NCBI RefSeq assembly: GCF_000507245.1
Contig: NC_023035.1
Span: 571,001-635,000, forward strand
Origin: Salinispira pacifica
GTDB lineage: Bacteria > Spirochaetota > Spirochaetia > DSM-27196 > Salinispiraceae
DNA: 64,000 nt
Reading direction: 5' to 3'
In this document: positions 14,943 to 53,004 of the stretch, one piece after another
How the letters are laid out: each line of letters opens with the position of its first letter
How positions within the stretch are numbered: the stretch's first letter is position 1
Position numbers and translations under genes: made by a program
The notes under the pieces: model-generated
What the model was told of the DNA's origin: nothing
Database searches by the model: none
What the model saw: only the letters and a program-made list of their open reading frames with translations

Positions 14943-15593
14943 TTACCTGCCATCCCTCTCAAGATGATGAAACTCCGCAAAAAATGATGAAAAGCGGAGG
15001 CCCAGGTCGATGTTTCTCACCAGGACCCGGGGAGGGAGCTCCAGGTGAAGGGACGCTCCGCTGAAATTCCATATCCCCCGGATGCCCGCTGACACGCAGT
15101 TCTGTGCAGCTGCTGAAGCGGCTTCCTGGGGAACCGTGAGAACTGCGATTTCCACCCCCAGTGAGGGAATGATCTCTCCCATCCTTTCCGCCTCATACAG
15201 TGGAATTCCCCGAAACTCCTCTGACCGCACATCTATATCGAAGGCTGCCTCGAAACGGATACCGTACTGCTGAAAACCCCGGTGCCCCAGCAAAGCACCG
15301 CCCAATGAACCCACTCCGATGAGTACCGCCCTGTATTCATGCTCAAATTCCAACCCCAGGATCTTCCCCAGCGCCTGTTCCAGCTCATCGCAGGGATACC
15401 CGATCCGGGTCCGGCCTTTTACTCCCGTATACTCAATATCCTTTCGAACCTGTATGGGGGTGAGGTTTGCTCTCCGTGCAAGATCTGAAGTTGAGATATG
15501 GGTTTCGCCCGCCATAATGGCCCGGGTTACCGTGTAGTAGTACCCGGGGAAACGCCGGATTGACGGAAGGGGAATGACGGTCTCTGCACTCAT
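14943..15593 (-). CDS. rex: Redox-sensing transcriptional repressor Rex
   Basis: 216-residue Rex protein. It has an N-terminal winged helix (SIRRFPGYYYTV, SDLARRANLTPIQVRKDI), then a Rossmann domain with GVGSLGGALL and a C-terminal swapped helix. Rex binds NAD(H) and releases DNA when NADH/NAD+ is high. It is divergent from adhE, a classic Rex target, so it very likely controls the adhE-hydrogenase operon. The first strand differs slightly (FDIDVRSEEFRGIPLYEAE), but all domain landmarks are present. Confidence 0.95.
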   Translation of the reverse strand: MSAETVIPLPSIRRFPGYYYTVTRAIMAGETHISTSDLARRANLTPIQVRKDIEYTGVKGRTRIGYPCDELEQALGKILGLEFEHEYRAVLIGVGSLGGALLGHRGFQQYGIRFEAAFDIDVRSEEFRGIPLYEAERMGEIIPSLGVEIAVLTVPQEAASAAAQNCVSAGIRGIWNFSGASLHLELPPRVLVRNIDLGLRFSSFFAEFHHLERDGR

Positions 15594-15660: not shown

Positions 15661-15689
15661 TTGACATGCTAAAACTGAGTATATATTAT
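15661..15689 (+). promoter_or_regulatory. Promoter of the adhE-hydrogenase operon
   Basis: TTGACA at 15661-15666, 17-nt spacer and TATTAT at 15684-15689, a near-consensus sigma-70 promoter. The surroundings are very AT-rich. Confidence 0.75.
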
Positions 15690-15702: not shown

Positions 15703-15720
15703 ACGATAAAAAAATATCGT
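15703..15720. promoter_or_regulatory. 18-bp inverted repeat in adhE leader, candidate Rex operator
   Basis: ACGATA-AAAAAA-TATCGT, perfect 6-bp arms with a 6-bp A tract, placed 13 bp after the -10 box. Position fits a repressor operator. It does not match the usual TTGT(T/G)AA-N4-TTAACAA Rex box, so the assignment to Rex is by context only. Confidence 0.5.
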
Positions 15721-15743: not shown

Positions 15744-18389
15744 ATGGATCAGCAGGAACTTCAAGTTACTCTGGAGAAAATGAAACAGGCTCAACGGGAA
15801 TACTCAGGGTTTTCCCAAGAGCAGGTTGATGCAGTGTTCCGGCATGCAGCACTCAAGGCCAACACCCAGCGCATCGAGCTGGCAAAGCACGCAGTGGCAG
15901 AGACCGGCATGGGCATCGTGGAAGACAAGGTGATAAAGAATCATTTTGCCTCCGAGTTTATATACAATAAATATAAAGACAGTGTGACATGCGGCACCCT
16001 GGAGTACGATGAAAGCCAGGGAATCCGGAAAGTCGCAGAAGCTCTGGGGATCATTTGCGCCATTATTCCCACCACCAACCCCACGTCAACGGCGATCTTC
16101 AAGGCGCTGTTGGCTCTGAAGACCCGGAATGGGGTAATCTTTTCCCCGCATCCCCGGGCAGCGGAATGCACCATCCAGGCTGCCAGGATAATCCGGGATG
16201 CTGCGGTGGAAGCCGGCGCTCCGGCGGATCTGATTTCATGGGTGGATACTCCTTCCATCGAGTTAAGCAACGCATTAATGAAGCATGATGATATCGCCCT
16301 GATACTTGCCACCGGCGGACCGGGAATGGTAAAGGCCGCTTACTCTTCAGGTAAACCGGCTATCGGGGTGGGTGCAGGTAATACCCCTGCGGTAATGGAC
16401 GAAACCGCGGATATCCGGATGGCGGTGAACTCAGTGATCGTCAGCAAAACCTTTGATAACGGTGTAATCTGCGCTTCCGAGCAGTCGGTAATTGTCCATG
16501 AAAGCATTTACCAGGCTGTGAAGGAAGAGTTCACCCGTCGGGGAGCACACTTCTGTAACGAAAAAGAACGGAAACTTCTTGGCGACACGATTCTGGACCC
16601 CAAACGGGGCAGCATTAACCCCAAAATTGTGGGGCAGCCCGCCGCGGAGATCGCCCGGATAGCAGGATTCAGCGTACCGGAAGAAAGCAAAATTCTCATA
16701 GCAGAGGTGGATTCCATATCAGCGGAAGAACCCTTTGCCCATGAAAAACTCTCACCGGTGCTTGCCATGTACAGCCGGCCGGATTTTTCATCCGCCGTTG
16801 ATGCGGCCAAAGCGCTGGTTGAGCTGGGCGGATTGGGCCACACTGCGGTTCTCTACACCGATCCATCCATGAAGGACCGGATTAAAGAGTATGGAAATAT
16901 CATGCCTGCGGGCAGAATCCTGGTGAATATGCCCTCCAGCCAGGGCGCCATCGGAGATGTCTACAACTTCCGTCTGGAACCATCCCTGACCCTGGGCTGC
17001 GGAAGCTGGGGAGGCAACTCGGTAAGTGAAAACGTGGGCATCAAGCATCTTATCAATATTAAAACAGTAGCGGAACGGAGGGAAAATATGCTGTGGTTCA
17101 GACTGCCGCCGAGAATTTATCATACACCGGGTTGTCTTCCCGTGGCCCTGGGCGATTTACAGGGCAAGCGGCGGGCGATGATCGTTACCGACAGTTTCCT
17201 CTTCGATAACGGATATGTGGAAACCATCGCGCGGAGCCTGAAGTCCATGAATATTCAGTACCAGTGTTTCCACCAGGTCGCACCGGACCCCACCTTGGAA
17301 ACCGTAGAGAAGGGCCTGGAGATGGTGAATGCGTTCCAGCCGGATGTGATCATTGGTCTGGGCGGAGGTTCTCCCATGGACGCCGCAAAGATCATGTGGC
17401 TGCTCTATGAGTATCCGGAAATTGAGTTTGAAGGTCTGGCCATGCGCTTTATGGATATCAGGAAGCGGGTCTACCGACTGCCCGAAGGCAACAAGAAGGC
17501 GGAATTTGTGGCAATTCCCACAACCTCGGGAACCGGAAGTGAAGTGACGCCCTTCAGTGTAATCACAGATCAGAGAAACGGAGCCAAATACCCCATTGCA
17601 GATTACTCCCTCACTCCGGATATGGCCATTCTGGACGCTGATCTTGCCAAGAACATGCCCGCGGGACTCACCGCCGCATCGGGAATCGATGCAATCACCC
17701 ACAGCCTTGAGGCCCTGGTATCTGTAATGGCTACCGAATACACCGATGCAATGGCCATAGAATCGCTGCAGAATCTCTTTCGCTATCTGCCCGATGCATA
17801 CCGGGACGGTGCAGCCAATCCCCAGGCCAGAGAGAAGGTTCACAATGCAAGCTGTATGGCGGGCATTGCCTTCGCAAATGCCTTCCTGGGAGTGTGTCAC
17901 TCCATGGCTCATAAATTGGGAGCTGCCTTCCATCTGCCTCACGGGGTTGCCAATGCTCTGCTGATAGAGCAGGTGGTACGGTTCAATGCAACGGATAATC
18001 CCAACAAGCTCACAGCATTTCCCAAGAATGAATATCCCCGGGCACGGGGCAAGTATGAGCGTCTTGCCGCAATGCTCAGCGCCGCCGACAGGATGGATCC
18101 GGGCGCGGCCGGGAAGACATCGAAGAAAACCCCGGCAGGAAAGAAGAACACCCAGGAAGGGTTGGAGCTGCTGTGCCGCAAGCTGACGGAGCTGAAAGAA
18201 GAGCTGAATATTCCCGCCTCCATTCAGGCTGCCGGGGTGGATGAAAAAGCCTTCCTGGCCCGGGTGGATGCACTTGCGGAAGAAGCGTTTGACGACCAGT
18301 GTACCGGGGCAAACCCCCGCTACCCGCTGATCAAAGAGATTAAACAGATGTATCTGAATGCCTTCTACGGCCGAACAGATGCCGTATGA
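15744..18389 (+). CDS. adhE: Bifunctional aldehyde/alcohol dehydrogenase AdhE
   Basis: 881-residue cytoplasmic enzyme that reduces acetyl-CoA to acetaldehyde and then ethanol with two NADH. The N-terminal aldehyde dehydrogenase half has the catalytic Cys at 243 in GVICASEQ and GVGAGNTPAV. The C-terminal iron alcohol dehydrogenase half has GLGGGSPMDAAK and the iron-ligand region GIDAITHSLEA and CHSMAHKLGAAFHLPHG. A Lys/Ala-rich insert (GKTSKKTPAGKKN) near residue 790 is unusual. AGGAGG 6 nt upstream fixes the ATG. Its stop overlaps the next gene by ATGA. Confidence 0.97.
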   Translation: MDQQELQVTLEKMKQAQREYSGFSQEQVDAVFRHAALKANTQRIELAKHAVAETGMGIVEDKVIKNHFASEFIYNKYKDSVTCGTLEYDESQGIRKVAEALGIICAIIPTTNPTSTAIFKALLALKTRNGVIFSPHPRAAECTIQAARIIRDAAVEAGAPADLISWVDTPSIELSNALMKHDDIALILATGGPGMVKAAYSSGKPAIGVGAGNTPAVMDETADIRMAVNSVIVSKTFDNGVICASEQSVIVHESIYQAVKEEFTRRGAHFCNEKERKLLGDTILDPKRGSINPKIVGQPAAEIARIAGFSVPEESKILIAEVDSISAEEPFAHEKLSPVLAMYSRPDFSSAVDAAKALVELGGLGHTAVLYTDPSMKDRIKEYGNIMPAGRILVNMPSSQGAIGDVYNFRLEPSLTLGCGSWGGNSVSENVGIKHLINIKTVAERRENMLWFRLPPRIYHTPGCLPVALGDLQGKRRAMIVTDSFLFDNGYVETIARSLKSMNIQYQCFHQVAPDPTLETVEKGLEMVNAFQPDVIIGLGGGSPMDAAKIMWLLYEYPEIEFEGLAMRFMDIRKRVYRLPEGNKKAEFVAIPTTSGTGSEVTPFSVITDQRNGAKYPIADYSLTPDMAILDADLAKNMPAGLTAASGIDAITHSLEALVSVMATEYTDAMAIESLQNLFRYLPDAYRDGAANPQAREKVHNASCMAGIAFANAFLGVCHSMAHKLGAAFHLPHGVANALLIEQVVRFNATDNPNKLTAFPKNEYPRARGKYERLAAMLSAADRMDPGAAGKTSKKTPAGKKNTQEGLELLCRKLTELKEELNIPASIQAAGVDEKAFLARVDALAEEAFDDQCTGANPRYPLIKEIKQMYLNAFYGRTDAV

Positions 18390-18685
18390 GCAGGGCAGTT
18401 GAGACCATCACCATCTGCATGGGCAGTTCCTGTCATTCCCGGGGCAACCGGGAAAACCTGGAGCTGCTCAGGCAGTGGCTGTCCGGTCAGTCAAAAAATC
18501 CGGATGCACAAATCGAATTGAAGGGGACTCTCTGCTGCGGTAAATGCAGCAGCGGTCCCCATCTCACAGGAAATAATGAGGAGCCCCTGCCTTCCAGCCC
18601 GGGGCTGCTTGAGCAATGGCTCCGGCGGCACCTCTTCAGGAAAGAGTCTGACCGACGGGATGAACCGAACCCGGAAGTAATGTAA
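18386..18685 (+). CDS. Thioredoxin-like 2Fe-2S ferredoxin (NuoE/HydC-like)
   Basis: 99-residue protein with a C-x4-C (CMGSSC, residues 12-17) and a C-x3-C (CCGKC) pair, the ligand pattern of thioredoxin-fold [2Fe-2S] domains of NuoE and hydrogenase subunits. It is coupled to adhE by ATGA overlap and lies 8 nt before the HydS-like gene. It probably shuttles electrons to or from the neighbouring hydrogenase proteins. A second such protein occurs at 21942. Confidence 0.82.
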   Translation: MSRAVETITICMGSSCHSRGNRENLELLRQWLSGQSKNPDAQIELKGTLCCGKCSSGPHLTGNNEEPLPSSPGLLEQWLRRHLFRKESDRRDEPNPEVM

Positions 18686-18693
18686 AAACGAAA

Positions 18694-20664
18694 ATGAATA
18701 AAACAGGTCCCATATATACAGAGGAAACAGTCTGTCAGGACTGTTATAAATGCATCCGTCAATGTCCGGTGAAAGCCATTAGTGTGGAAGACGGACACGC
18801 GGTAATCATGGCGGATAACTGCATTCTTTGCGGCGTTTGTGTGAATGCATGCCCCGTGGGGGCAAAAAAAGTGCGGGATGATTCCTCTTTTATTGAAGCC
18901 ATGCTGGATTCGGATGAGCAGGTATGCGCGGCATTGGCGCCGTCTCTACTTGCCATGGATTCGGCGGGGCTCATACCTCCTCTTATTCCCGTGCTTGAAG
19001 ATCTGGGGTTCGCAGCCTGGGCACGGGTGTCCGACGGAGCTGAGTGGGTGAATGCTCAGACCCCCGCAGCAGCTGCATTAAATGATGATGCTGATGTACT
19101 GGTCTCCTCCGCATGTCCGGCGGCGAACCGGTATCTCAGGCTCTACGGCAGGGAGGGTGCCCGTCTGGTGAACTTGCCGACACCCATGCTTGCCGCCTGT
19201 GCAGGATTGAAAGAGGACTATCCGCGGGTGGTATTCATCGGCCCCTGTGCGGCCAAAAAATGGGAGGCGGACAGTTTCCCCCAATGGGTTGACGGAGTTC
19301 TTACCCTGGATGAGCTTGAATCTCTTATTGAACGGCGCATGAACGGGCACACTGAAGCGCCAAACACCTCGGCTGCCCGTATTGGACCGGACGAATCCGA
19401 TTCGGGACCGCCCGAAACCAATAGCGGCCAGGCCGCAGCCCATATTGGACTGGCCGCAGCCCGGCTGTATCCCAAACCCGGGGGAATGCTGGAATCTCTC
19501 AACAAAACCAGCAGGCTTCCCGAAGGATCCATTGCGATTTCCGGAGTGGACCGCTTCCAGGAATCTTTGGACGAGGCTGTTCTTATGGCTCGGAATCGTT
19601 CAGTGGAGAAGGGCCGGACGCATGGCCGTAATCCGGACGGCGGCCCGGTTTTTATGGAGATGCTTTCCTGCCGGGGAGGGTGTCTTGAGGGGCAGTGCGC
19701 TGCATCCAGGGCGGGGCAGCTGCGATCTTCCCGGGAACTGGAGATAATTGCGGATGGAGCCACGGGGGATGCCGGAGCTGAGAGCATGGCCGGAGCAGCC
19801 AGAGCAGCCGGAGCAGACAGAGCGGCCCAGTCAGACAGAACGGCCCAGTCAGACAGAACGGCCGGTTCTGATAAGCGGCGGTTTGAATCCGCCCGGGAAA
19901 TTGATTTTTCTTCTGTCCGGGGGCTGAAAAAATTCAGGTGGCCGGAACTTGACCACCCGGTCACATTACGCAGGCACCCTTCTCTCGGCGATCCGGAAAC
20001 AGACCTGAAGATCAGGAATTTCCTGGACTCCATCGGTAAACACAGCCCCGTTGACGAAAAAGATTGCGGCGCATGCGGCTACGATTCCTGCCGGGATTTC
20101 GCCTGGGCCGTTGTCCACGGTTTCGGGGAGAGAAACATGTGCGTAAGCAATCTGCGGATGGTGGCGGAGCGGAAAGCTAATGCCCTGCTGAAGACCATGC
20201 CCTGTGCGGTGGTGATTGTGGATGATCAGCTGGGCATCGTGGAATGCAACAGAAAATTCCTCCAGAATTTCCTTCCCCAGGCAGCTGAACTCCCCGGCAG
20301 AGAGCTGCAGCAGCATATTCATCAGGTGAACCTGGAACATATTATCGAGGACTGCTCCAGCTTCCGTCAGGTTCTGAAAAGCGGATCACCGGTGGAGGGT
20401 ATCACCCTGAAAAAGCAGGAGCGGATCTATGAGCTCACCGTCTTTCCCGTGGAGAAGGAACGTACCGCCGGATGCCTGCTCCAGGATATTACCCAGCCCT
20501 TCGCCCGAAGGGAAAGCGTCATCCGCCGGGCGAAAACGGTGCTGGAAAAAAATGTACAGACGGTACAGCAAATCGCGTTTCTTTTGGGGGAAAATGCAAG
20601 TGAGAGCGAGCAGATGCTCAGGGCGGTGATCCAGTCATTCGGAGGCGGGGAACGGGATGAGTGA
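18694..20664 (+). CDS. Sensory [FeFe]-hydrogenase-like protein with PAS domain (HydS-like)
   Basis: 656-residue modular protein. Two [4Fe-4S] motifs lie at residues 14-53. An [FeFe] H-cluster domain follows, with L1 SSAC (Cys141), L2 IGPCAAKK (Cys185) and L3 CRGGC (Cys326, Cys330). The proton-relay Cys of the normal TSCCP motif is Ala140, as in the Thermotoga sensory hydrogenase HydS, so a sensor rather than a fast catalyst is expected. Next come a repeat-rich Ala/Asp linker (360-395), a four-Cys Fe-S module (458, 461, 466, 483), a PAS domain (about 500-610) and a helical output end. It overlaps the SpoIIE phosphatase gene by 8 nt, suggesting a signalling pair. Confidence 0.85.
   Translation: MNKTGPIYTEETVCQDCYKCIRQCPVKAISVEDGHAVIMADNCILCGVCVNACPVGAKKVRDDSSFIEAMLDSDEQVCAALAPSLLAMDSAGLIPPLIPVLEDLGFAAWARVSDGAEWVNAQTPAAAALNDDADVLVSSACPAANRYLRLYGREGARLVNLPTPMLAACAGLKEDYPRVVFIGPCAAKKWEADSFPQWVDGVLTLDELESLIERRMNGHTEAPNTSAARIGPDESDSGPPETNSGQAAAHIGLAAARLYPKPGGMLESLNKTSRLPEGSIAISGVDRFQESLDEAVLMARNRSVEKGRTHGRNPDGGPVFMEMLSCRGGCLEGQCAASRAGQLRSSRELEIIADGATGDAGAESMAGAARAAGADRAAQSDRTAQSDRTAGSDKRRFESAREIDFSSVRGLKKFRWPELDHPVTLRRHPSLGDPETDLKIRNFLDSIGKHSPVDEKDCGACGYDSCRDFAWAVVHGFGERNMCVSNLRMVAERKANALLKTMPCAVVIVDDQLGIVECNRKFLQNFLPQAAELPGRELQQHIHQVNLEHIIEDCSSFRQVLKSGSPVEGITLKKQERIYELTVFPVEKERTAGCLLQDITQPFARRESVIRRAKTVLEKNVQTVQQIAFLLGENASESEQMLRAVIQSFGGGERDE
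19825..19862 (+). repeat. 18-bp direct repeat in the HydS-like gene
   Basis: GCCCAGTCAGACAGAACG occurs twice in tandem, with a third partial copy (GCGGCC...) on either side. It codes the AQSDRTAQSDRTA linker between hydrogenase and Fe-S/PAS modules. In frame. Confidence 0.75.
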
Positions 20665-21835
20665 GCAGCTTTTCAGTGATATTGCCCTGTCCGCCACAGC
20701 GAAATACGGAGAGTCGGCCCGGGGGGATTGCTTTCTTTCCAGGCGGGACGGCGACGGATCAACTGTTGTTGCAGTGCTCTCCGACGGGTTGGGATCGGGA
20801 ATCAAGGCGAATGTTCTGGCAACCCTCACCGCTAAAATCGCACTGGATATGTTCTGTTCTGGCGAAGATCTGCTTACAGCCGCCCGGCTCATCTATACCT
20901 CCCTGCCCACCTGCAGTGAGAGAAGAATCAGCTACGCTACGTTTTCTGTTGTCCGTTCACACGGAAACGGGGATGTGACGATTATTGAATTTGATAATCC
21001 TCCGGCCCTGGTGATCCGTAATCATGAGCTGCTGGACTTGGAGGAGGAATCATTTACGGTTCCCAGACCACGGGCTGCAGCGGCTACCATTACACGAAGA
21101 GTGCTTCATTCACGTCCCGGGGACCGCATAGTCTTTTTCAGCGACGGGGTGAGCCAGGCGGGTATGGGTTCGGATGCCCATCCTCTGGGGTGGCAGGATG
21201 TATTCCCCTATGTCCGGGGACTGCTGGATCATAATCCGGAGATCAGTTCCGTCGATTTGAGCCGGGCGGTACTCAGGAGGGCTGAGCGTCTGGACGGCAT
21301 GAAGGCCCGGGACGATATCAGCTGTGCCGTGTTGCATGTGCGGCATCCCAGAAAAACGATTCTGGTTTCTGGCCCTCCGTTTCATCCCCAGGGTGATGGG
21401 TATCTGGCATCCCTGTTGAAGAGCTTTGACGGGAAAAAGGCCGTGTGCGGAGGGACTACCGCCCAGATCATTGCCCGGGAATGGGGCGAGAATGTTCATA
21501 TGGACTTAAGCGCCCACACAGGAAGTCTGCCTCCCATGTCACGGCTGGACGGAGTTGACCTGGTAAGCGAAGGCATTCTTACCATTTCAGCATTGAAGGA
21601 TGCTCTGGAGCAGGGCGACGATCATAGCAAGCCGCTGGATCCGCCGGTGGACCGGCTTCAGAATCTTCTGTTGAACAGCGACAGCATCCACATTGTGGGG
21701 GGGACCAGAATCAACGAAGCCCACCAGGACCCCAATATGCCCGTGGAGCTTGAGATCAGGCGGAATGCTCTCAGGTCCTTGGGAGAAATACTGAAAACCC
21801 GGTATCTCAAAGAAGTTGAACTTGAATTTATCTGA
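20657..21835 (+). CDS. SpoIIE-type PP2C serine phosphatase
   Basis: 392-residue PPM phosphatase. The metal-binding aspartates are visible in ARGDCFLS (near 22), VLSDGLGSG (near 43), FFSDGVSQAG (near 163) and DDISCAVL (near 221). A second domain (about 230-392) has no recognised family. It overlaps the HydS-like sensor by 8 nt. SpoIIE-family phosphatases normally dephosphorylate an anti-sigma-antagonist protein; here H2 or redox sensed by HydS could set its activity. The target is not in the window. Confidence 0.85.
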   Translation: MSEQLFSDIALSATAKYGESARGDCFLSRRDGDGSTVVAVLSDGLGSGIKANVLATLTAKIALDMFCSGEDLLTAARLIYTSLPTCSERRISYATFSVVRSHGNGDVTIIEFDNPPALVIRNHELLDLEEESFTVPRPRAAAATITRRVLHSRPGDRIVFFSDGVSQAGMGSDAHPLGWQDVFPYVRGLLDHNPEISSVDLSRAVLRRAERLDGMKARDDISCAVLHVRHPRKTILVSGPPFHPQGDGYLASLLKSFDGKKAVCGGTTAQIIAREWGENVHMDLSAHTGSLPPMSRLDGVDLVSEGILTISALKDALEQGDDHSKPLDPPVDRLQNLLLNSDSIHIVGGTRINEAHQDPNMPVELEIRRNALRSLGEILKTRYLKEVELEFI

Positions 21836-21941
21836 TACACCCGGCGGCAAAATATGCGGCACACACCACCGCAGCCGGCATGGTTCGAATACCTGAAAGG
21901 GTAAAACGGCAATGAGAACAATATCAGAGTGGAGGAAACAC

Positions 21942-22319
21942 GTGGATACACAAGACAGCAAAACCGGCAGCCGGAATATCAAGCTAAACCGGAATATCAA
22001 CATAGACAATGAACAGCCCGGTTCATTGCACGATGAACAGAAGACTTCAGCCTGCATAGAAGTGGAGCTGTGCATGGGAACCGCCTGTCACGTTCACGGG
22101 GCGGCGGACCTTCTTCACCGGCTGAAAGAGCTTGAACAGACATATCCTCTTGAACTGCGGGCCGTCCCCTGTCTCAACAGATGCCGTCAGCGTGGGGCCG
22201 AGCAGCCGCCGGTTATCCGCATTAACGGAAGGCTGCACTTTGCACTGCTGCCCGAAGGTCTTGAAGAGCTGATATCTTCCGTACAGGAACACGATAACGA
22301 AAACGGAGCGGGGCGATGA
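21942..22319 (+). CDS. Second thioredoxin-like 2Fe-2S ferredoxin (NuoE-like)
   Basis: 125-residue protein with CMGTAC and CLNRC, the four ligands of a thioredoxin-fold [2Fe-2S] cluster, and a PVIRINGRLHF strand. The GTG at 21942 is preferred because GGAGG stands 6 nt upstream; an in-frame ATG at 21912 lacks a ribosome site. The first 35 residues are polar and probably disordered. Its stop overlaps the hydrogenase ATG by ATGA, so it likely carries electrons for that enzyme. Confidence 0.82.
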   Translation: MDTQDSKTGSRNIKLNRNINIDNEQPGSLHDEQKTSACIEVELCMGTACHVHGAADLLHRLKELEQTYPLELRAVPCLNRCRQRGAEQPPVIRINGRLHFALLPEGLEELISSVQEHDNENGAGR

Positions 22320-23707
22320 GTCAGCGGAAAAACCGGAGTACCAGGGGCGCAAAAATCCGCCGTGAGATTTATCAGGGGATTGCCGAAAGTGAGCTGAAGA
22401 AAGATCCTTCCCTCCTGGACAGACTTGCATTTGATATGGAAGCAAGGAGCAGCGATACCGCCAGGTGCTGCAGTCATCACCGGAAAGCAGTGCTGAGAAG
22501 GAGGGTTGTGGCGGCCATGGGATACCGGCCATCCAGTATTGAAGAGTTTCAGCCTCTTTCCGGTCTGCCGGCGGCAGGCATCGGTGAACCGGCCATGGTG
22601 ATTATCCCCGAGGCATGCAACAGCTGTCCTTCTTCAAGCTATGTGGTTACCAATGGGTGTCAGAACTGTGTGGACCGCAATTGCAGTCACCAGTGTCCGC
22701 GGGATGCCATAACATTCACCAATAGCGGAGCAGTAATCGATGGAGAGTTGTGCATCAACTGCGGCAAATGCGCCAAAGCCTGCAGTTTCTCTGCCATCAT
22801 CCCCCGGAAATCTCCCTGCCTGGATGCCTGTCCCGCTGGAGCCATTCAGCGGGAAGGGGACGGCCCCGCAGTCATCCATGAAGAGAAATGCATTCAATGC
22901 GGACAGTGCATGCTTTCCTGTCCCTTTGCAGCCCCGGTTCCGGTGTCGCACATGCGGAATGTGGCCCGGGAGTTATCTTCGGAAAACGGCCCCGTGGCCC
23001 TGGTTGCTCCTTCGGTCCACGGTCAGCTTCCCGGTACCCGGGAGCAGTTTTATACAGGACTGGGGCGGCTGGGGTTTGCCGCGGTGTATGAGGTTGCCGA
23101 GGGTGCCGTTGCCACCGCAGAACACGAGGCCCGGGAACTGGGGGAACACATGAAGGCCGGGAAAGGCTTCATGACTTCCTCCTGCTGCCCCGCATACACA
23201 GAACTGGTGCGCACTGCCATTCCTGCCCTGGGTTCCAGGGTGAGCAGCACTCCTCCCCCGATGTTTTACAGCGCCCGAAAGGCGGCGGTGAAGCATGCCG
23301 GGCGCAGTCTGGTGTTCATCGGCCCATGTTTTGCGAAGAAGCTGGAAGCGCTGCGGGATGGATCAGCGGATTATGTGATCACCGTGGAAGAACTGGGAGC
23401 CATGCTGGTTGCTGCAGAAATTGAGCTGTCAGATCTCCCGGAAGAAGACTCTGCAACTCTTCCCCGGCCGCCGGAGTGGGCCATGGGTTTTGCACGGGCC
23501 GGAGGCGTAGCCGCAGCAATTGCCGGAATATCAGCCCGCCCCCCCGGAACCAGGAACATCAAGGGGCTGGACAAAAAGCAAAGCAACCTGCTGAAAGTCT
23601 GGAGCAAAAAACCCGAGCTTGCGGACACAGATTTTCTGGAGGTAATGTGCTGCCCCGGGGGGTGTGCGTCCGGGCCCGGAGTTCTCTGGGAGAACTGTGG
23701 CGATTAG
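22316..23707 (+). CDS. Compact [FeFe] hydrogenase (group B-like)
   Basis: 463-residue monomeric [FeFe] hydrogenase. A Cys-rich N-terminus (CNSCPSSS, CQNCVDRNC) precedes ferredoxin-like [4Fe-4S] motifs (CINCGKCAKAC, CIQCGQCMLSC; residues 146-202). All H-cluster motifs are intact: L1 SCCPAY (Cys290, Cys291), L2 IGPCFAKKLE (Cys338) and L3 EVMCCPGGC (Cys446, Cys450). It evolves or oxidises H2 with ferredoxin. It is last in the adhE operon and coupled to the 2Fe-2S protein. The variant L2 (GPC instead of MPC) and extended N-terminus fit group B rather than HydA1. Maturation needs HydE, HydF and HydG. Confidence 0.88.
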   Translation: MSQRKNRSTRGAKIRREIYQGIAESELKKDPSLLDRLAFDMEARSSDTARCCSHHRKAVLRRRVVAAMGYRPSSIEEFQPLSGLPAAGIGEPAMVIIPEACNSCPSSSYVVTNGCQNCVDRNCSHQCPRDAITFTNSGAVIDGELCINCGKCAKACSFSAIIPRKSPCLDACPAGAIQREGDGPAVIHEEKCIQCGQCMLSCPFAAPVPVSHMRNVARELSSENGPVALVAPSVHGQLPGTREQFYTGLGRLGFAAVYEVAEGAVATAEHEARELGEHMKAGKGFMTSSCCPAYTELVRTAIPALGSRVSSTPPPMFYSARKAAVKHAGRSLVFIGPCFAKKLEALRDGSADYVITVEELGAMLVAAEIELSDLPEEDSATLPRPPEWAMGFARAGGVAAAIAGISARPPGTRNIKGLDKKQSNLLKVWSKKPELADTDFLEVMCCPGGCASGPGVLWENCGD

Positions 23708-41757: not shown

Positions 41758-44089
41758 ACGGGGAGCGATGACCGGCTTTCCTGGGAGTCTCATCACCGAG
41801 ACGTTTCAATCCGCGCTCCCGCACGGGGAGCGATGGTGGGGCGTGATTTTGGAATCAACACTGACATGGTTTCAATCCGCGCTCCCGCACGGGGAGCGAT
41901 TTTCGATGTTAGTGACGCGGTTGCGGAATCAATGGTTTCAATCCGCGCTCCCGCACGGGGAGCGATTCCTGCTCAGAAAGAGTGTTAAGGAATGATTCAA
42001 GTTTCAATCCGCGCTCCCGCACGGGGAGCGATAAGTGCTGCCGTCAGCTTTGCAATCTGATCATCGTTTCAATCCGCGCTCCCGCACGGGGAGCGATTTT
42101 TATCAGCATCGCAATAATGAGGCTCTTACCCGTTTCAATCCGCGCTCCCGCACGGGGAGCGATATTGTGCAGATCAAAAAAATCAGGATTGACGGAGGTT
42201 TCAATCCGCGCTCCCGCACGGGGAGCGATATCAGCTTCGAAGATGTAACCCCGGCGAGTGCTTGGTTTCAATCCGCGCTCCCGCACGGGGAGCGATTTTA
42301 ACTGTCAAGTATTTTGTCAAAGAAAGTTAAGTTTCAATCCGCGCTCCCGCACGGGGAGCGATGCAACAAGGTCCCAGTTTGTGCCGCTTGCCAGTTCAGT
42401 TTCAATCCGCGCTCCCGCACGGGGAGCGATGGCCTTGGCTGAGAGTTGGCCGACAAAAACAGTCGTTTCAATCCGCGCTCCCGCACGGGGAGCGATAGTA
42501 AACCGGGTATACGGCTCACTGTCAGCCGGTGTTTCAATCCGCGCTCCCGCACGGGGAGCGATTTATTTGGACTTTCAACAAAATACACACAACGCCATGT
42601 TTCAATCCGCGCTCCCGCACGGGGAGCGATCCCAAGCACGGACCGTAGAGAAAGAGACGACTTAAGTTTCAATCCGCGCTCCCGCACGGGGAGCGATCGG
42701 ATGTACCGGACGACTGGAAACTACAGCTATGGTTTCAATCCGCGCTCCCGCACGGGGAGCGATTGAGCCGCTTACAAGCATCGTCGCTGATTCAGCTGTT
42801 TCAATCCGCGCTCCCGCACGGGGAGCGATAGGATACAAAACGGCATTTGGACTGGTGGCTCCATGTTTCAATCCGCGCTCCCGCACGGGGAGCGATTTAC
42901 GATGCTGAGCTTGAAAATATCCGAAAAATAGTTTCAATCCGCGCTCCCGCACGGGGAGCGATACAGGCTGGCGTGCCTTACCAGACGCGCACCTTTGTTT
43001 CAATCCGCGCTCCCGCACGGGGAGCGATTCGATCAATAATGGCGTGTGCAATTGTCACAAAGGTTTCAATCCGCGCTCCCGCACGGGGAGCGATGGCTAC
43101 ATTCAGGAATACGACCAGATAAACTCCCGTTTCAATCCGCGCTCCCGCACGGGGAGCGATGCTTGAGCCACGATACTACCAAACTCAAGCACATGTTTCA
43201 ATCCGCGCTCCCGCACGGGGAGCGATTAGAAAAAGTTATATCATGGGCCTTACAGGTTGACGTTTCAATCCGCGCTCCCGCACGGGGAGCGATGTGGCCA
43301 TTGTGGGTTTCCGCATACATTATAGCGGTTTCAATCCGCGCTCCCGCACGGGGAGCGATTCATGAGAGATAACAGGCCGATTGCTGCGTATATGTTTCAA
43401 TCCGCGCTCCCGCACGGGGAGCGATCAGTTCTGTCAATGCTGGATTATAGTTGTAATTATGTTTCAATCCGCGCTCCCGCACGGGGAGCGATTTATGGGT
43501 CACTTGATTATATAGTCGCGATCCGTGTTTCAATCCGCGCTCCCGCACGGGGAGCGATCTGGCGCCCTGGGCGCATATTTCGACAACAGTCAGTTTCAAT
43601 CCGCGCTCCCGCACGGGGAGCGATCCGCAAGAAGTACAGGACGAACAACAGCCCGATCTGTTTCAATCCGCGCTCCCGCACGGGGAGCGATTACAGCCAT
43701 CTGAATTGATATGAGCATTTAACCTGTTTCAATCCGCGCTCCCGCACGGGGAGCGATGCCTGCCACTCGGTCCATCTTGCCCCTGTGCGCTGTTTCAATC
43801 CGCGCTCCCGCACGGGGAGCGATCGACGAACCGAACGGAGCCTGACTGTATAAATTAGTTTCAATCCGCGCTCCCGCACGGGGAGCGATGATTCGGTAGC
43901 TACAATTACAGCATCGCCGATGGTGAGTTTCAATCCGCGCTCCCGCACGGGGAGCGATAACTTTCATGAGCTCAGAAAAAGCAATGAGAAAGTTTCAATC
44001 CGCGCTCCCGCACGGGGAGCGATTTCCATTGCCTGGATGATAGCGTATGCAATCGAAGTTTCAATCCGCGCTCCCGCACGGGGAGCGAT
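41758..44089 (-). CRISPR. Type I-C CRISPR array, 35 intact repeats
   Basis: Thirty-five identical 32-bp repeats from 41803-41834 to 44058-44089, separated by 34 unique spacers of 33-37 bp (most 34). On the + strand each repeat starts GTTTCAATCC and ends GGGGAGCGAT, with a 7-bp stem CGCTCCC/GGGAGCG. Read on the minus strand it ends GGATTGAAAC, the usual crRNA 5' handle, so transcription runs right to left away from cas2. A degenerate repeat at 41758-41769 keeps only 12 bp (ACGGGGAGCGAT) and marks the old, leader-distal end, giving one further 33-bp spacer. No repeat variant was seen among the 35. Confidence 0.98.
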
Positions 44090-44275
44090 AGACCCCATTA
44101 TATATCATTATGGTATAATATGTTAGTGGCATTATATCGCGAACCTATTTTTCTGGTGTTGCCTGGAACTATAGATTCCTTCTCTTTTCTGTCAAAGATC
44201 TTTATAATGCAAGGAAATATTCTATGCGCGAAAGGTTCGGGATTTTCTGAATGATTGGCGTTCGCAAAAGAGGAT
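44090..44275 (-). promoter_or_regulatory. CRISPR leader with promoter
   Basis: AT-rich 186 bp between cas2 and the newest repeat. On the minus strand TTGACA (44190-44195), 16-nt spacer and TATAGT (44168-44173) make a good promoter about 75 bp before the first repeat. Confidence 0.75.
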
Positions 44276-44566
44276 TTAAATAATAAGTGGGTCATCAACA
44301 TCAAATGATGCCTTTGCTCCGATATGCTCTACCCGTTTTCGATAGTTTTTTCCCAGATAATAATATCGAAGGCTATCCAACTCTACATCGATAATACCTT
44401 CGAGAGTATTTTTAAGCCGAGCCCATTGTCCAGGATCTATGACACATTCAAACACAGAGTATTGTACACGCTGTCCGAAATTTGTACATTCTTTCGCAAT
44501 TTTTCTTAACCTTCGTTTTCCTCCCGGACTGGTTACTGCAACATCATAACTGATTAGCACCATCAT
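44276..44566 (-). CDS. cas2: CRISPR-associated endonuclease Cas2
   Basis: 96-residue Cas2: ferredoxin-like fold opening MMVLISYDVAV with the conserved Asp after the first strand, then RVQYSVFECVI. Works with Cas1 as the spacer-integration complex. Start at ATG 44566 follows GGAGG by 8 nt; the longer frame to 44620 overlaps cas1. Next to the leader, as usual in subtype I-C. Confidence 0.96.
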   Translation of the reverse strand: MMVLISYDVAVTSPGGKRRLRKIAKECTNFGQRVQYSVFECVIDPGQWARLKNTLEGIIDVELDSLRYYYLGKNYRKRVEHIGAKASFDVDDPLII

Positions 44567-44571
44567 AATAC

Positions 44572-45603
44572 TTACCTCCAAAAAAACGGTGGGTATCCTT
44601 CTATATCTCCTCTGATACAACGCGCGAGCAGATTTGCTTGAACAAAAAACAAGAGGCCGATCGGAATTGATTCTTTAATATATGGATGGTAAATTTCAGT
44701 CTGTTTTCTATTTTGGTACTCAGCTAACAATGTTTTTCGAGCATCATCGCTCATTGTAATTGCTCCGTTTTCTGCTCTTCTGAAATCTTTTTTATCGAGC
44801 TGGCGCCGGTTTATTAGCGACAGAACTAGTCGGTCCGCTATTACTGGCCTCAATTCTTCCATCAGGTCAAGTGCAAGGCCCGGCCTTCCTGGTCTATCTC
44901 TATGAAGAAATCCCACAGATGGATCAAGACCTACTGTCTCTAATGCCGATCTCATATCATGCGCAAGCAATGTATACGTGAATGACAGCAGTGCGTTCAC
45001 TTCGTCAAGCGGAGGACGTCTACTTCTTTCGTGAAACTGGAAGTCCCCCTTCTGTTCAATGATGAGGTGATTAAAAATACTGAAATAAGCAGCTGCAGCA
45101 GCACCTTCGATTCCCCTGGTTTCTTCAGTGGTCGATATTTCTTCTAACTGTTTAAGGCACTGCGATAGCTGTGTGGCTGCGTTTTTAAGCAAAACGGAAT
45201 TCACTTTGCTTTTATGATCTCTCAGGGTTCTCAGAATAACTATCCGGCTGTTTGCGATTTTTGCAGCAACAAAATTGGTTGCATATTTTTGGGTTATTTC
45301 TTCATTATCAGCCTGTCTATACTGTGCTCGACGCAAAAGCACATTTCCTCGAACCGGACCATGAACAGATGCCAGAAAACGCCCAAATTCAGTCAGAAAA
45401 GAAATACTGATATCTTTTTCAGTGCAAAACCCGAGTAAAAAAGGGGAGCATAATACATTACCAAAAGCTACGATTCCGCCAACTGTGTGAATTGGTAATT
45501 GCAGAACTTTTCTGGATTCTTGCTCAACAACTATGGTCTCCCCCTCCTTTCTCAGATAACTTCCTTGAGTTCTAACATAGAGAGTATTAAGCAGTTTCCT
45601 CAA
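44572..45603 (-). CDS. cas1: CRISPR-associated integrase Cas1
   Basis: 343-residue Cas1 of the I-C type. Likely catalytic metal ligands are Glu166 (RGIEGAAAAAYF), His234 (GFLHRDRPGRPG) and Asp246 or Glu249 (LALDLMEELRP). It begins with TTG overlapping the cas4 stop (TTGA), so the two are coupled. Cuts and joins new spacers at the leader-proximal repeat with Cas2. Confidence 0.97.
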   Translation of the reverse strand: MRKLLNTLYVRTQGSYLRKEGETIVVEQESRKVLQLPIHTVGGIVAFGNVLCSPFLLGFCTEKDISISFLTEFGRFLASVHGPVRGNVLLRRAQYRQADNEEITQKYATNFVAAKIANSRIVILRTLRDHKSKVNSVLLKNAATQLSQCLKQLEEISTTEETRGIEGAAAAAYFSIFNHLIIEQKGDFQFHERSRRPPLDEVNALLSFTYTLLAHDMRSALETVGLDPSVGFLHRDRPGRPGLALDLMEELRPVIADRLVLSLINRRQLDKKDFRRAENGAITMSDDARKTLLAEYQNRKQTEIYHPYIKESIPIGLLFFVQANLLARCIRGDIEGYPPFFWR

Positions 45604-46259
45604 TCAAGATCCTCCTGCAGATTTTTGCGAATATGGTTCTGCATGTATCTTCTGACATGGTTCCCGTTCACATGCATGGTATGCGGCATGCAAATATCAA
45701 GCAGAGAGCACCGGTCGCACTTCTTTTTGTCATACACAGCAGGTGGCGTCTGGCCTGATTCAAAGATATTTCTGGTATGATCAATGGTTGCGATCGTTTC
45801 TGCTCTGAGCTCAGTATCAAAGGAAATTGATGTACGGCGATGCTCCTGCAGATAATAAATCTGCCCTTCGGGCACAGTCACGCTGAACATCTCCTGAAGA
45901 CATAGTGCCTGTGCGCATAGCTGAACCAAATCATAGTTGTCCGGCTTTTTCCTTCCACGTTTGAATTCTACTGGCTTAACCGACTCGTAGTTTTTTGTTG
46001 TTGTTTTAACGAACTCGACTAGATCTGCTTTTCCAATAAGTCCATACTGTAAGGAACGCAAAGCAAGGCCGTATTCTGTACGATTAGTACGTCTGGACTC
46101 ATTGTGTACAATATCAACCCGCTCATGAAGTATATTTCCTTCAATTGTATATCTGTTTTCTGCCCATACCTGCTCAATGTGGATGAGAGCATACTGCCGT
46201 TCACAAAACAGAACATGTTGAAGGGCGGAAATTGGTATCAGGTCTGTTTCAGAATACAT
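45600..46259 (-). CDS. cas4: CRISPR-associated exonuclease Cas4
   Basis: 219-residue Cas4: first Cys in LFCERQYALIH, RecB-like nuclease motifs GKADLVEF and PVEFKRGRKK, and the C-terminal Fe-S cysteines CDRCSLLDIC. It trims prespacers and selects the PAM for Cas1-Cas2. It sits between cas7 and cas1 with a 45-bp gap from cas7. Confidence 0.96.
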   Translation of the reverse strand: MYSETDLIPISALQHVLFCERQYALIHIEQVWAENRYTIEGNILHERVDIVHNESRRTNRTEYGLALRSLQYGLIGKADLVEFVKTTTKNYESVKPVEFKRGRKKPDNYDLVQLCAQALCLQEMFSVTVPEGQIYYLQEHRRTSISFDTELRAETIATIDHTRNIFESGQTPPAVYDKKKCDRCSLLDICMPHTMHVNGNHVRRYMQNHIRKNLQEDLD

Positions 46260-46304
46260 AGTTTCCTCAATAGAGCCGGGGTGGATGAACCCCGGCTTAT
46301 GGAT

Positions 46305-47180
46305 TTAAATAAAAGAGTGTAGTTTTACACCTTCAGGGAGTGCTTGCTCATCGATTTGTATCTGATAATCAGCGAAAGACCTTGCTGGTGTATCAGAGTC
46401 TCCGTTTGCACGGGTAACCTCTATTCGATCGAATAATGTGTGTGCGGGGGCATTCCCGAGAGCAGAGTCATGTTCAAATACATATAATCCCCTTGCAGTC
46501 ATTAGACCTCGGGCTGCTGAACGGTCATGCTCGAACATATTAATCAAGGATTCCCAGAACAGCTTTAGATCATCTTCGGTAAATCCGGTTTGTTCAGCCA
46601 AATGAGCAGATACGAATCCATGGGTTCGGTACAGACCGTAGGGAATTGTGTACTTTCGTCCCATAGTCCGATTATCACCCTTCTGCTTTTTGGCTTCTTC
46701 TTCCGTTGCTACAGCCATTCTAGTGATACTATGTTCCAGGGTAACAACCGGTTCAATAGAGCGCCCAAACACGAGTTGAATAGGACCTCGAACTTGCCCG
46801 CAATTATTAGTTTTTAGACTCATCACTGCACCGAATGTCCGTATGTCGAAAAAATTCCTGCACATATATTCCCGGCCCTTAACGATTTTTACACTTTTAT
46901 CGCTCGCCGCTTTTACAGATTCATCCTCATATGCTTCACCCTGAGTTCTACTCAGCACCGCTTTTTCTTTCACGTAGATATCATGTGGCTTCTGATTTCC
47001 TTTTACAATCTGTACGTAGTTTCTAATCTTCCGTTTCAGACAGACATCGGTCACAAGCCCCATACCGGTTTCCGCATCAATTCGAGGCAGATTTCCTGCA
47101 TCGGGATCTCCGTTTGGATTACCATCTTGGACATCAAACAGATAGGTGAAGTCATACCTTCGATTTACCGTATTACTCAT
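46305..47180 (-). CDS. cas7c: Cascade backbone protein Cas7 (Csd2 type)
   Basis: 291-residue Cas7 of subtype [28 protein letters not shown] at the N-terminus is the family signature. Several copies coat the crRNA spacer. The start at ATG 47180 follows GGAGAAAACA; the longer frame to 47267 lies within cas8c. Overlaps the cas8c end by 8 nt. Confidence 0.96.
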
Positions 47181-48936
47181 TGTTTTCTCCTTCTGATACA
47201 TTGTTTTTCTTGAAAAAGTCTTGTCGCTGGTGGTAGTAGCCAATTGCAAAGCGAGCCTGATCTTCAATATTCATATGTGCAGGAATCGAAGTAGGCAGTT
47301 CTCCCATGATCTCGGCAAGCCGCTTTTCATGAACAGTTTTGAATGCAGGGTTATCAATCTTTGCAAGATGATAGTTTTTTAACTTCAATAGCTGTGGGAA
47401 TGCGGTAACCGGATTTGAGCTTGCTGAAGAATAGTACCGTTCCCGTATTGTTGAGTTGATCGATCGGCCTCCGCTTGCATCCTCCTGAATCTTTTCCAGA
47501 GCTGCAAATAAACGACCTAGTCGGTAACCGACATTGGTATTTTCTTTGTCTAATGCCACTTTTATCTCCTTTTTGAGGTTGTTATGAGATTTCCTTTCTT
47601 TCCGATTAAGATAAGCTTTTAGCAATGCTGCTCGAATATGATAGATTTTCTGCTCTGCCCGAATGCGACGAATACACTGGTGTAACATGGGTACAGGATA
47701 CGGCTGGTTATTCAAGACTGAACGCATCATATTTCCGGCAAGGTTTGGCGGAACATTATCCGATTTCCAATCAAGTACCGTGGATTTTAAAAGATATGAC
47801 AATGATGGTTTTGGTTCATCCACTCTTGCTCCTTCTATTTCCAGATCCATGAGATGTTGTCGGATGTTATTCGCAAATTCTTCCACCGTTGCTTCGTGCC
47901 AAAACCTGACCGAAATTCTTGCTGCATTTGGGGCTAACCCAAGGATGTAGAACTTTGAACTTTTCTCTTCAGGGGGAATTCCTGTCAGTACGGAATAGAA
48001 GGTGTTGCTAAGCTTTTCAATATCCTTATCTGGGTTATCGCGTTCCTTTTTCGGAGTGGTAAAGAATGAAGGGAAATGTTTCTCAAAATTTGATTCACTC
48101 TTTTGAGCCCAGAATACTACCGAAGTATCACCAATCTGTAGACGGTTTCGGGAACCTTTTGCAAGCAAAAGGTTGAGTGCTGTTGTGTAGGCAAATGTGA
48201 CAGTTTTACTGATAGGCGCATTAAAATTCTGCTCCTTACAATACGAGTCATACCCTCTTTGCTTCTGGAATGAGACAAGTGCTGCACCTGCTTTTTGTGC
48301 ACCATAAACACCTTTAATAGCTGGGTGAATACGGTTAATTAAACCCTTTTCACCGGTTACCATACATCTGCCAAACTTAAATTCATCCGAGGATGCAGTT
48401 TTCAGTTCTTTTAAGTCGCTCATTAGGCTCTCAGTAATAGAACTTCCCGCTTCTCCTTGAAGCTTGAACGTGAGATTCGGATTGGTTTCGTAAATTTCAT
48501 CCCATACTGAATCTGCATGATTTTTACCATAATTCTCAGCTTCAAATGTGTTCAGAAAATTCATGACAGCTTTCACCTGCGGTTTATCAGCAATTGAACT
48601 GAGCATTTCGGATTGCTTTTCTATGAAAGCATGGTGCCGCTCTTGGACATTATTTCTCTGTTTTGATGTGATACCTAAAACGTACTCTGCAGAATCCCAT
48701 AATAAATTTGCTTTAATCCCGGAAGTTTTTTTCTCACCTTGCGGTACTAAAAATGGTTTTCCATTGTTTTTTCCCCCTCCTGTCTCCCTTGTATCTTCAA
48801 AACGAACCAAATTTCCTTGCTTATCCAGTACAATTAAAAATGGTATCTGTTTTCTTTCAAAGCCTTCAGGAGGGATGTTACTGTTTGGATCGTCAGCCTT
48901 TCGTTGATAGTATTCGTATAACGCTTGAATGATCAC
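47173..48936 (-). CDS. cas8c: Cascade large subunit Cas8c (Csd1)
   Basis: 587-residue Csd1-family protein, the PAM-recognising large subunit of I-C Cascade; its gene may also encode an internal small subunit (Cas11-like) from the C-terminal helical part, as known for other I-C systems. GTG start with GGGGAGG 9 nt upstream; it overlaps the cas5 stop (GTGA). Typical features: [16 protein letters not shown] start and [18 protein letters not shown] in the middle. Confidence 0.95.
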
Positions 48937-49601
48937 AGATAAACCTCCCCACTATCCCAATCGGGGACTTCAATCACACCATTCTTCATTAATGGCCGAT
49001 AAAACGCAGGCCGTATTTCCTGATCTTCGTCATCGGGTTTTGGAAATTGCATATCATAGAGCATAAACCCCAGATCAGAATCTTCATGAATAGGTTGTTT
49101 TTCGCGCTCTCCTTTTTCATGATCAATTAATGCAAACCTGCAGCTGTATTCCCTGCAGCCGAGGTAGGGCTGGTTGAAGCATTGTCCTTTGCCTGCACGT
49201 CTTTCGAACATTGCATTGTACTTCGCAGGATTTTCGTCCTTCCGTGGTTCGCCCTTTTCTGGATGGAAGCGCAGTTCGGCATACAGGCGGTATGCAACGT
49301 CGCGTAGAATCAGTCCGGCTCGCTGTTGTCGGACATCTTCGATATACACACCATCTGTTCGAGTGATATAGGCACCCACTTCGTTCCGCCGGATTGAAGT
49401 CCACCTGATGGGTTTGAGAACCTCAATTTTTTTCACCTGCCACGAAACCGAAGGTTTCCAGAGAATAGCTTCAAATATTCCTCTAGCAGCAGAGGGAGTA
49501 ATAACATCGTAGCTTACTCGCTCAACTTTCATTTCCGGTCGGGTAAAACATGCATAGTCTCCTTCTACTTCCAGGCAAAAGGTTTTGTAATAGTGTTCCA
49601 A
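48933..49601 (-). CDS. cas5c: Cas5 (I-C crRNA endonuclease)
   Basis: 222-residue Cas5d/Cas5c. In subtype I-C this protein replaces Cas6 and cuts the repeat RNA; no cas6 is present here. Signatures: LEVEGDYACFTRPEMKVERVSYDV and PSAARGIFEAILWKP. TTG start with AGGAGGT upstream, 14 bp after cas3. Confidence 0.95.
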   Translation of the reverse strand: MEHYYKTFCLEVEGDYACFTRPEMKVERVSYDVITPSAARGIFEAILWKPSVSWQVKKIEVLKPIRWTSIRRNEVGAYITRTDGVYIEDVRQQRAGLILRDVAYRLYAELRFHPEKGEPRKDENPAKYNAMFERRAGKGQCFNQPYLGCREYSCRFALIDHEKGEREKQPIHEDSDLGFMLYDMQFPKPDDEDQEIRPAFYRPLMKNGVIEVPDWDSGEVYL

Positions 49602-49615
49602 CCGTACCTCCTTTG

Positions 49616-51904: not shown

Positions 51905-51952
51905 TAACGCCCTCTTTTGCTAAATCAACAGTGTCAGTTTATTTCTATCCAG

Positions 51953-51971
51953 TTTCACCTACCGAAACTCC
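51953..51971. promoter_or_regulatory. Inverted repeat upstream of cas3
   Basis: AGTTTCACCTACCGAAACT: perfect 6-bp arms around a 7-bp core, 49 bp before cas3 and just after the WYL gene stop. Its ACCGAAAC half recurs next to the WYL gene's own start, suggesting an operator for that regulator. Confidence 0.5.
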
Positions 51972-51972
51972 T

Positions 51973-53004
51973 CTACAATTTTTTATTCTTTTCATACATC
52001 TGAGCCATCTTGCTGCAATCTTCCATATGCTTTTGACGCAGCCATTCGGGTTCTAATACTTGAACATCCGGTCCCCAACCACGAATCCAGGGATACATTT
52101 CTCGGGGTTCGGCAATGTATGCGTAAAACATCAGGCTTCCGTCCGCTTCTGTGGAAATGGTCATGCTCGGGTGCCATTGCGTTTCGGCAACACGATGAGC
52201 AACGCTTTTTGAAAATAAAAGTTGAACATGCTGAGGAGCGCTTTCGCTGCTCCAAATACCCCAGGCTTGCCGAAAACGCTTTCTTATTGATTCCAAGGGG
52301 ATGCGGTTCTTAATATTTGGCTCTGGTTGCATCAGCTCAACGTTTTCGATCCGTTCAACTTTTATTGTGCGGAATTGTTCATCCTGATTAGATATATCCC
52401 ATGAAAGCAGGTGTACGGCTCTACCTTCATGATGAGGTTCAAGTGATATGGGAAACAGAATAAATTCCTGAGTGGTCTGTTTTCGGGCAGAGAAATGGCG
52501 GATCTTCATGGGACGGGATTCACTCATCGCACGGCCGGTTTGTTCAATAATTTTACGGTAATGGGAGAAATCGATGGGGCTTGAGAAATTATCGATATCC
52601 TCGGCTGTGAACAGAATCTGATCGGCCAGAGAGTCGCTTACCCGCCGCTGGGCGTCTGCAAGTTTACGTAGAGCGGAGGATGCATGAGGGAAGGGGAATT
52701 TCATCACCCGTGAGAACAAGCGGGTTGACAAATGAAGAGCTTCCAGCTCGTACATGCTCAGTCTTACATTGTGCAAATACTGTGACGGGTCCATCCGGAG
52801 CCGCCGTGAATCATCTTCATATATATAACCGCCAGTGCTTAATGATTGAATATCTCTGTGGATGGTTGCTTTACTTACCCCAAAAATCTTTGCCAGCTCG
52901 CTTTGGGTTTTACCTCGTTCCGAATGGAGCAATAGCCGCTCAATTTGCAAGAGTCTCTCAGCTTTATTATGGGCGGAAGTAAACCGCGTTGTCTCATTAG
53001 ACAT
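51973..53004 (-). CDS. WYL-domain transcriptional regulator
   Basis: 343-residue regulator: N-terminal helix-turn-helix (about 14-60, GKTQSELAKIFGVSKATIHRDIQ), a central WYL domain (about 150-230, with HLLSWDISNQ) and a C-terminal WCX extension. WYL proteins bind nucleic-acid ligands and often control CRISPR-Cas or other defence genes. It sits just upstream of cas3 on the same strand, so control of the cas operon is likely. Sign of regulation unknown. Confidence 0.88.
   Translation of the reverse strand: MSNETTRFTSAHNKAERLLQIERLLLHSERGKTQSELAKIFGVSKATIHRDIQSLSTGGYIYEDDSRRLRMDPSQYLHNVRLSMYELEALHLSTRLFSRVMKFPFPHASSALRKLADAQRRVSDSLADQILFTAEDIDNFSSPIDFSHYRKIIEQTGRAMSESRPMKIRHFSARKQTTQEFILFPISLEPHHEGRAVHLLSWDISNQDEQFRTIKVERIENVELMQPEPNIKNRIPLESIRKRFRQAWGIWSSESAPQHVQLLFSKSVAHRVAETQWHPSMTISTEADGSLMFYAYIAEPREMYPWIRGWGPDVQVLEPEWLRQKHMEDCSKMAQMYEKNKKL

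Follow-up and report, generated by a model that had tools for sequence, protein, structure and literature searches.

How a sensory [FeFe] hydrogenase passes on its signal is an open question in the field (PMC11376134, PMC13104023), and it is raised by a gene block of the spirochaete Salinispira pacifica. The block lies in a stretch of 64,000 nucleotides (the window) that covers positions 571,001 to 635,000 of the complete 3.78-Mb genome. Behind adhE, five genes on one strand encode a 2Fe-2S protein, a HydS-like sensory hydrogenase (here HydS), a SpoIIE-type phosphatase, a second 2Fe-2S protein, and a group B-like [FeFe] hydrogenase (Table 1). The end of adhE shares 4 nucleotides (nt) with the first 2Fe-2S gene, and the HydS and phosphatase genes share 8 nt. 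A preliminary description of the window had placed this block directly behind adhE and opposite rex, with the 8-nt overlap and two thioredoxin-like 2Fe-2S proteins. Its open reading frames (ORFs), domains, and coordinates are correct, and as a whole it stands in nearly every detail. We conclude that the block is probably a spirochaete hfs-type (HydDB C3-type) operon for H2/redox sensing in which HydS and the phosphatase form a switch.

The pairing of HydS with the phosphatase extends well beyond this genome. Using only the phosphatase as the query, we detected it in 40 of the 296 genomes of the phylum, and a scan of a species-genome collection gave at least 585 relatives among at least 587 pattern matches. 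The best 80 of these at least 585 relatives, which span about 13 phyla by record titles and include no Firmicutes among the 80 loci, were combined with 20 loci from the phylum. The resulting set of 100 loci, some of which share a contig (e.g., L052 and L129), is biased toward those most similar to the query. The C-terminal part of HydS is encoded directly upstream of the phosphatase at 98 of the 100 loci, indicating a pairing beyond chance; in most cases the two share a few nt or are only a few nt apart when starts are taken from the longest possible ORFs. The preliminary description had staked its reading on the pair recurring in other genomes, as it does here. The first 2Fe-2S protein is present at 81 loci and the downstream hydrogenase at 58, with Rex and AdhE found within approximately 9 kb at 21 and 7 loci, respectively. 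The order of divergent rex, adhE, and module recurs in one relative (G185, locus L051).

HydS matches Fer4, Fe_hyd_lg_C, the PF04060 Fe-S module, and PAS domains, all over the Pfam cut-offs. Its H-cluster cysteines are Cys141, Cys185, Cys326, and Cys330, which are retained in 92 to 94 of 94 HydS homologues, and Ala140 occupies the position of the proton-relay cysteine. This position holds alanine in 74 of the 94 homologues and cysteine in 6, so that Ala140 is the usual state of the HydS family and no peculiarity. TmHydS likewise has alanine there (PMC10055695). The preliminary description had recognized the four cysteines and Ala140, as well as the added Fe-S module, PAS domain, and helical tail. 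The protein is longer than most of its relatives (656 versus approximately 580 residues), and a low-complexity tandem repeat (18-nt unit, 4.3 copies; window 19789-19865) lies between its hydrogenase and Fe-S parts.

The tail that follows the PAS domain, helical as judged from its sequence, carries a nearly invariant VQxIAxLLGEN motif; Val624, Gln625, Leu631, Gly632, Glu633, and Leu642 are each found in 91 to 93 of the 94 homologues. In three genomes from one family of the same phylum (L049, L147, and L149), the phosphatase instead lies within a CO dehydrogenase operon, in the order CooC-like ATPase, CooS, CooF-like ferredoxin, 2Fe-2S protein, PAS protein, phosphatase, and NuoE/F/G-like genes. 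CooS is recognized by TIGR01702 (682 bits, cut-off 478), and the CooC and CooF names rest on position and sequence. The PAS protein is only 173 to 177 residues long and has no hydrogenase domain, yet it keeps the VQxIAxLLGEN motif and precedes the phosphatase. Because the tail survives where the hydrogenase head is absent, it is likely the contact to the phosphatase. Such a contact fits the mechanism of RsbU, for which coiled-coil linkers have been proposed to connect a variety of sensors with PPM dimers and to pass on their signals (PMC12143880). We found no paper on a link between CO dehydrogenase, PAS, and SpoIIE proteins. At the other of the 100 loci without HydS (L090), the neighbor is unrelated.

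The phosphatase keeps the metal-binding aspartates of the PPM family (Asp24, Asp43, Asp163, Asp219, and Asp220), which are also conserved among its relatives. Its AlphaFold2 (AF2) model (mean predicted local distance difference test [pLDDT] score, 87) matches PPM structures at Z scores up to 25.6, so that a PPM fold is predicted. Behind the catalytic domain lies a domain of approximately 160 residues with the motifs GGTT, EGILT, and INEAHQDP. This C-terminal domain shows stronger conservation than the catalytic one (mean majority residue, 59% versus 55%). Across the 296 genomes of the phylum, its 41 occurrences coincide with those of the full phosphatase, with none elsewhere. AF2 models it with confidence (pLDDT, 90.5), as an alpha/beta domain. 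Pfam recognized nothing in the domain of the window's phosphatase, and among 82 members its matches were no more than weak and scattered; PDB sequences gave no match below an E value of 0.5, and Foldseek gave none for the model at E≤0.001. A named fold for the domain was rejected. VIA-align returned a run of NuoG, formylmethanofuran dehydrogenase, and formate dehydrogenase domains at Z scores of 8 to 10.8 (best match, 121 aligned residues with a root mean square deviation of 3.3), a likeness between models and structures that we treat as a lead and not as a family assignment. The INEAHQDP loop (residues 354 to 363) is highly conserved, yet it has low confidence in the full-length AF2 model, and it might be a loop for a ligand or partner.

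Several described systems resemble the block. HydDB has an [FeFe] group C3, labeled "phosphatase-linked (putative)," whose members may sense H2 and regulate via Ser/Thr phosphatases (PMC5037454). HydS shares with this group a sensory-type hydrogenase with alanine at the proton relay and a Ser/Thr phosphatase as the presumed output; we assign a probable C3 type from its domains (Fe_hyd_lg_C with four H-cluster cysteines, an Fe-S module, and a PAS domain) and from the phosphatase gene alongside, here in a spirochaete and next to a group B-like hydrogenase and adhE. An eight-gene cluster of Ruminococcus albus likewise unites adhE, a ferredoxin-only hydrogenase, a PAS-bearing group C hydrogenase, and a putative Ser/Thr phosphatase, and its expression drops 111-fold in coculture with an H2 consumer (PMC6776011). 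In R. albus the partner hydrogenase is termed A1, and in our block it is group B-like. Similarly, gene order and domains align the block with hfsABCD of Thermoanaerobacterium saccharolyticum, where the PAS hydrogenase HfsB, the serine phosphatase HfsC, and the ferredoxin-linked hydrogenase HfsD (PMC5707799, PMC11837493) follow in the same order on one strand. HfsA has no obvious known match, whereas 2Fe-2S proteins precede both HydS and the hydrogenase in S. pacifica, and here adhE belongs to the same gene run. Deletion of hfsA or hfsB, and not of hfsC or hfsD, raises adhE transcripts two- and threefold (PMC5707799); both this effect and a high ethanol yield depend on intact, wild-type hfsC and hfsD (PMC5707799, PMC11837493), and hfsB deletion is already in use to raise ethanol yield (PMC5707799). 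Finally, RsbU, RsbP, and SpoIIE phosphatases share the PPM catalytic domain and the coupling of sensor domains through helical linkers (PMC12143880, PMC11418112), but here sensor and phosphatase are separate genes, the phosphatase has an extra C-terminal domain, and a STAS substrate appears dispensable.

These comparisons suggest how the switch would work. H2, or a redox state set by H2, would alter HydS at its H-cluster and its N-terminal Fe-S part; the Fe-S module and the PAS domain would relay the change to the helical tail, which would dock on the phosphatase and switch it. HydS would keep the phosphatase in check; once released by high H2 or by the loss of HydS, the phosphatase would raise expression of adhE and the hydrogenase, and electrons would then be sent to ethanol. 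Rex could add control by NADH. We infer H2 as the ligand, the tail-phosphatase contact, and the regulation of adhE, and the sign of control, with HydS holding the phosphatase back, would follow the hfs genetics and R. albus data from other organisms. The switch is supported by the 98 paired loci with their short overlaps, the tail kept in the PAS-only protein, and the PPM residues and fold, and by the R. albus response to H2 (PMC6776011), the hfs deletions (PMC5707799), and the RsbU linkers (PMC12143880). Two points weigh against it. In the group D relative TamHydS, H2 does not reduce the C-terminal Fe-S cluster (PMC13104023), so that by analogy the relay may not be electronic, and the presence of adhE near the module at only 7 of 100 loci indicates that adhE is not the general target gene.

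The signal read by HydS and the target of the phosphatase allow other explanations. HydS could read ferredoxin or the general redox state instead of H2, its H-cluster part merely poising the protein. The PAS-only protein that replaces HydS in the CO dehydrogenase operon and the 2Fe-2S proteins that flank HydS in most loci would fit this, but retention of the four H-cluster cysteines in nearly all homologues and the tracking of H2 level by R. albus fermentation shifts (PMC6776011) make it somewhat unlikely. That HydS and the phosphatase are mere neighbors without physical or functional coupling is highly improbable, given that the same order and overlap recur in about 13 phyla and that the PAS-only variant retains the tail motif. 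On the output side, the phosphatase could act directly on a pathway enzyme, such as AdhE or a hydrogenase subunit, with transcript changes secondary to posttranslational control. Indeed, hfsB mutants gain NADH-linked alcohol dehydrogenase and not NADH-linked aldehyde dehydrogenase activity, which its authors took as possible posttranscriptional control (PMC5707799), and the neighborhoods of our loci hold no dedicated partner gene beside the module. Since the adhE transcript rises as well in these mutants and adhE is rarely adjacent, we consider direct enzyme control unlikely.

A classic partner switch, in which the phosphatase would dephosphorylate a STAS anti-anti-sigma protein phosphorylated by an RsbW-like kinase and a sigma factor would then turn on adhE and the hydrogenase, is suggested by the SpoIIE/RsbU-like catalytic domain. 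The preliminary description saw no phosphatase target in the window and had proposed to look for STAS and anti-sigma partners in the genome, and candidates do exist: the genome encodes eight SpoIIE-domain proteins, six STAS-domain proteins, and two STAS-RsbW-like pairs. However, both pairs adjoin SpoIIE genes of their own. Further, among 16 phosphatase-bearing relatives, 9 have a STAS match and 7 (two genera; draft genomes 95 to 99% complete) have no detectable one, so that a STAS target is not required and the partner switch is quite improbable. Hanks kinases were rejected as a general counterpart of the phosphatase; some occur in this genome, but the seven small STAS-free relatives have none.

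A counterpart for the phosphatase of the HydS switch may lie at the hydABC locus. The HATPase/DRTGG/CBS module of this locus co-occurs with the phosphatase in 19 and 20 of the 40 genomes, versus 6.8 and 9.6 expected. We rejected it as an obligate partner: adjacency is not the norm, and a shared fermentative life could explain the excess. The list of 18 genomes scored as lacking both parts is unreliable, with diverged HATPase copies present in all three that were rechecked. A small HATPase-like gene does lie inside the hydABC operon in the three STAS-free genomes that were read (L150, L151, and L152) and in S. pacifica itself (L134; genome 303,358-303,912), and in one relative (G292, locus L046) such a gene stands directly behind the module. 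A histidine kinase-like ATPase flanks TamHydS as well (PMC8163306). We regard the small HATPase-like protein as a candidate counterpart. Beside it in the S. pacifica operon, a small 2Fe-2S-like protein (L134 8897-9310) has no cysteines, and its usual GTCG reads GTSG, as also in L150 and L151 and not in L152; as pure speculation, this serine might be a phosphorylation site.

The preliminary description had also set Rex above the module. Position agrees with this: Rex adjoins the module, 2.0 to 3.0 kb upstream, at 13 of 100 loci, and here a palindrome lies between the promoter-like site and the adhE start. The canonical Rex motif does not; its three two-mismatch matches in the window are no more than chance and none is near adhE, and we rejected a canonical Rex operator there. 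The palindrome may be an operator, for Rex or for some other regulator, and Rex control over the module is plausible by position. A second rex stands divergent from the bifurcating hydABC operon (L134 4324-7495; genome ~299.3-302.5 kb), in one run with two small DRTGG-type proteins, a CBS-HATPase fusion, and a PHP protein.

The downstream hydrogenase matches the group B model TIGR04105 over its full length (positions 4 to 459 of 462) and has intact H-cluster motifs (TSCCP, GPCFAKK, and CCPGGC), in agreement with the preliminary description. Its score of 418 bits is below the curated cut-off of 450, and "group B-like" is therefore the only right wording. Elsewhere in the window, 8 kb (44001-52000) at 42 to 43% G+C, versus mostly 50 to 58% in the window, carry six long ORFs, every one of them on the minus strand, and are possibly acquired DNA.

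Table 1. Features of the adhE-HydS-phosphatase region (window positions)
Feature	Position	Strand	Evidence
rex, redox-sensing repressor, divergent from adhE	14943..15593	-	NF003994, 190 bits (cut-off 130)
Promoter-like site upstream of adhE, TTGACA-N17-TATTAT	15661..15689	+	Consensus scan, 11/12; candidate
18-nt palindrome ACGATA-N6-TATCGT between promoter-like site and adhE start; candidate operator	15703..15720		Sole exact copy in genome
adhE, bifunctional acetaldehyde-CoA/alcohol dehydrogenase	15744..18389	+	NF010378, 1354.7 bits (cut-off 951)
Thioredoxin-like 2Fe-2S protein 1	18386..18685	+	PF01257, 30.4 bits (cut-off 24.8)
HydS-like sensory [FeFe] hydrogenase, 656 aa	18694..20664	+	PF02906, PF00037, PF04060, and PAS_9 over cut-offs; motif conservation
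PF04060 Fe-S module of HydS, residues 456-484	20059..20145	+	34.5 bits (cut-off 23)
PAS region of HydS, residues ~491-605	20164..20508	+	PAS_9, 30.1 bits; PAS_4, 28.3 bits
Conserved HydS tail, residues 606-656, VQxIAxLLGEN; proposed phosphatase contact	20509..20664	+	Homologue conservation; kept in PAS-only protein
SpoIIE-type (PPM) phosphatase, HfsC-like, 392 aa	20657..21835	+	PF07228, 50.1 bits; AF2 model matches PPM structures
Phosphatase C-terminal domain, residues 230-392, without Pfam match	21344..21832	+	Sequence and model comparisons
Thioredoxin-like 2Fe-2S protein 2	21912..22319	+	PF01257, 27.9 bits (cut-off 24.8)
Group B-like monomeric [FeFe] hydrogenase, 463 aa	22316..23707	+	TIGR04105, 418 bits; PF02906, 144 bits

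A phosphatase output for H2 sensing, as the preliminary description had proposed, is well supported by gene order and the conserved pair, yet as an idea it had already been published (PMC5037454, PMC6776011, PMC5707799), and the locus is a new spirochaete example of it. To this known idea the comparison adds how widely the pair is conserved, the motif of the HydS tail, the domain specific to the phosphatase, the CO dehydrogenase-linked variant, and evidence that a STAS target is dispensable. Tentatively, the phosphatase could serve as the common output for a family of anaerobic sensors of redox state and gases, with HydS for H2 and the PAS-only protein with CO dehydrogenase. These sensors would reach it via one conserved helical docking motif, and its own C-terminal domain would act on a non-STAS target, so that this signaling branch would differ from the RsbU/SpoIIE partner switch. 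The comparison argues against assuming a STAS target for this phosphatase, and the CO dehydrogenase-linked version suggests that it can serve more than H2. For the signal output of sensory hydrogenases, the family thus offers two handles: the nearly invariant HydS tail as a probable docking site and a previously undescribed domain specific to the phosphatase.

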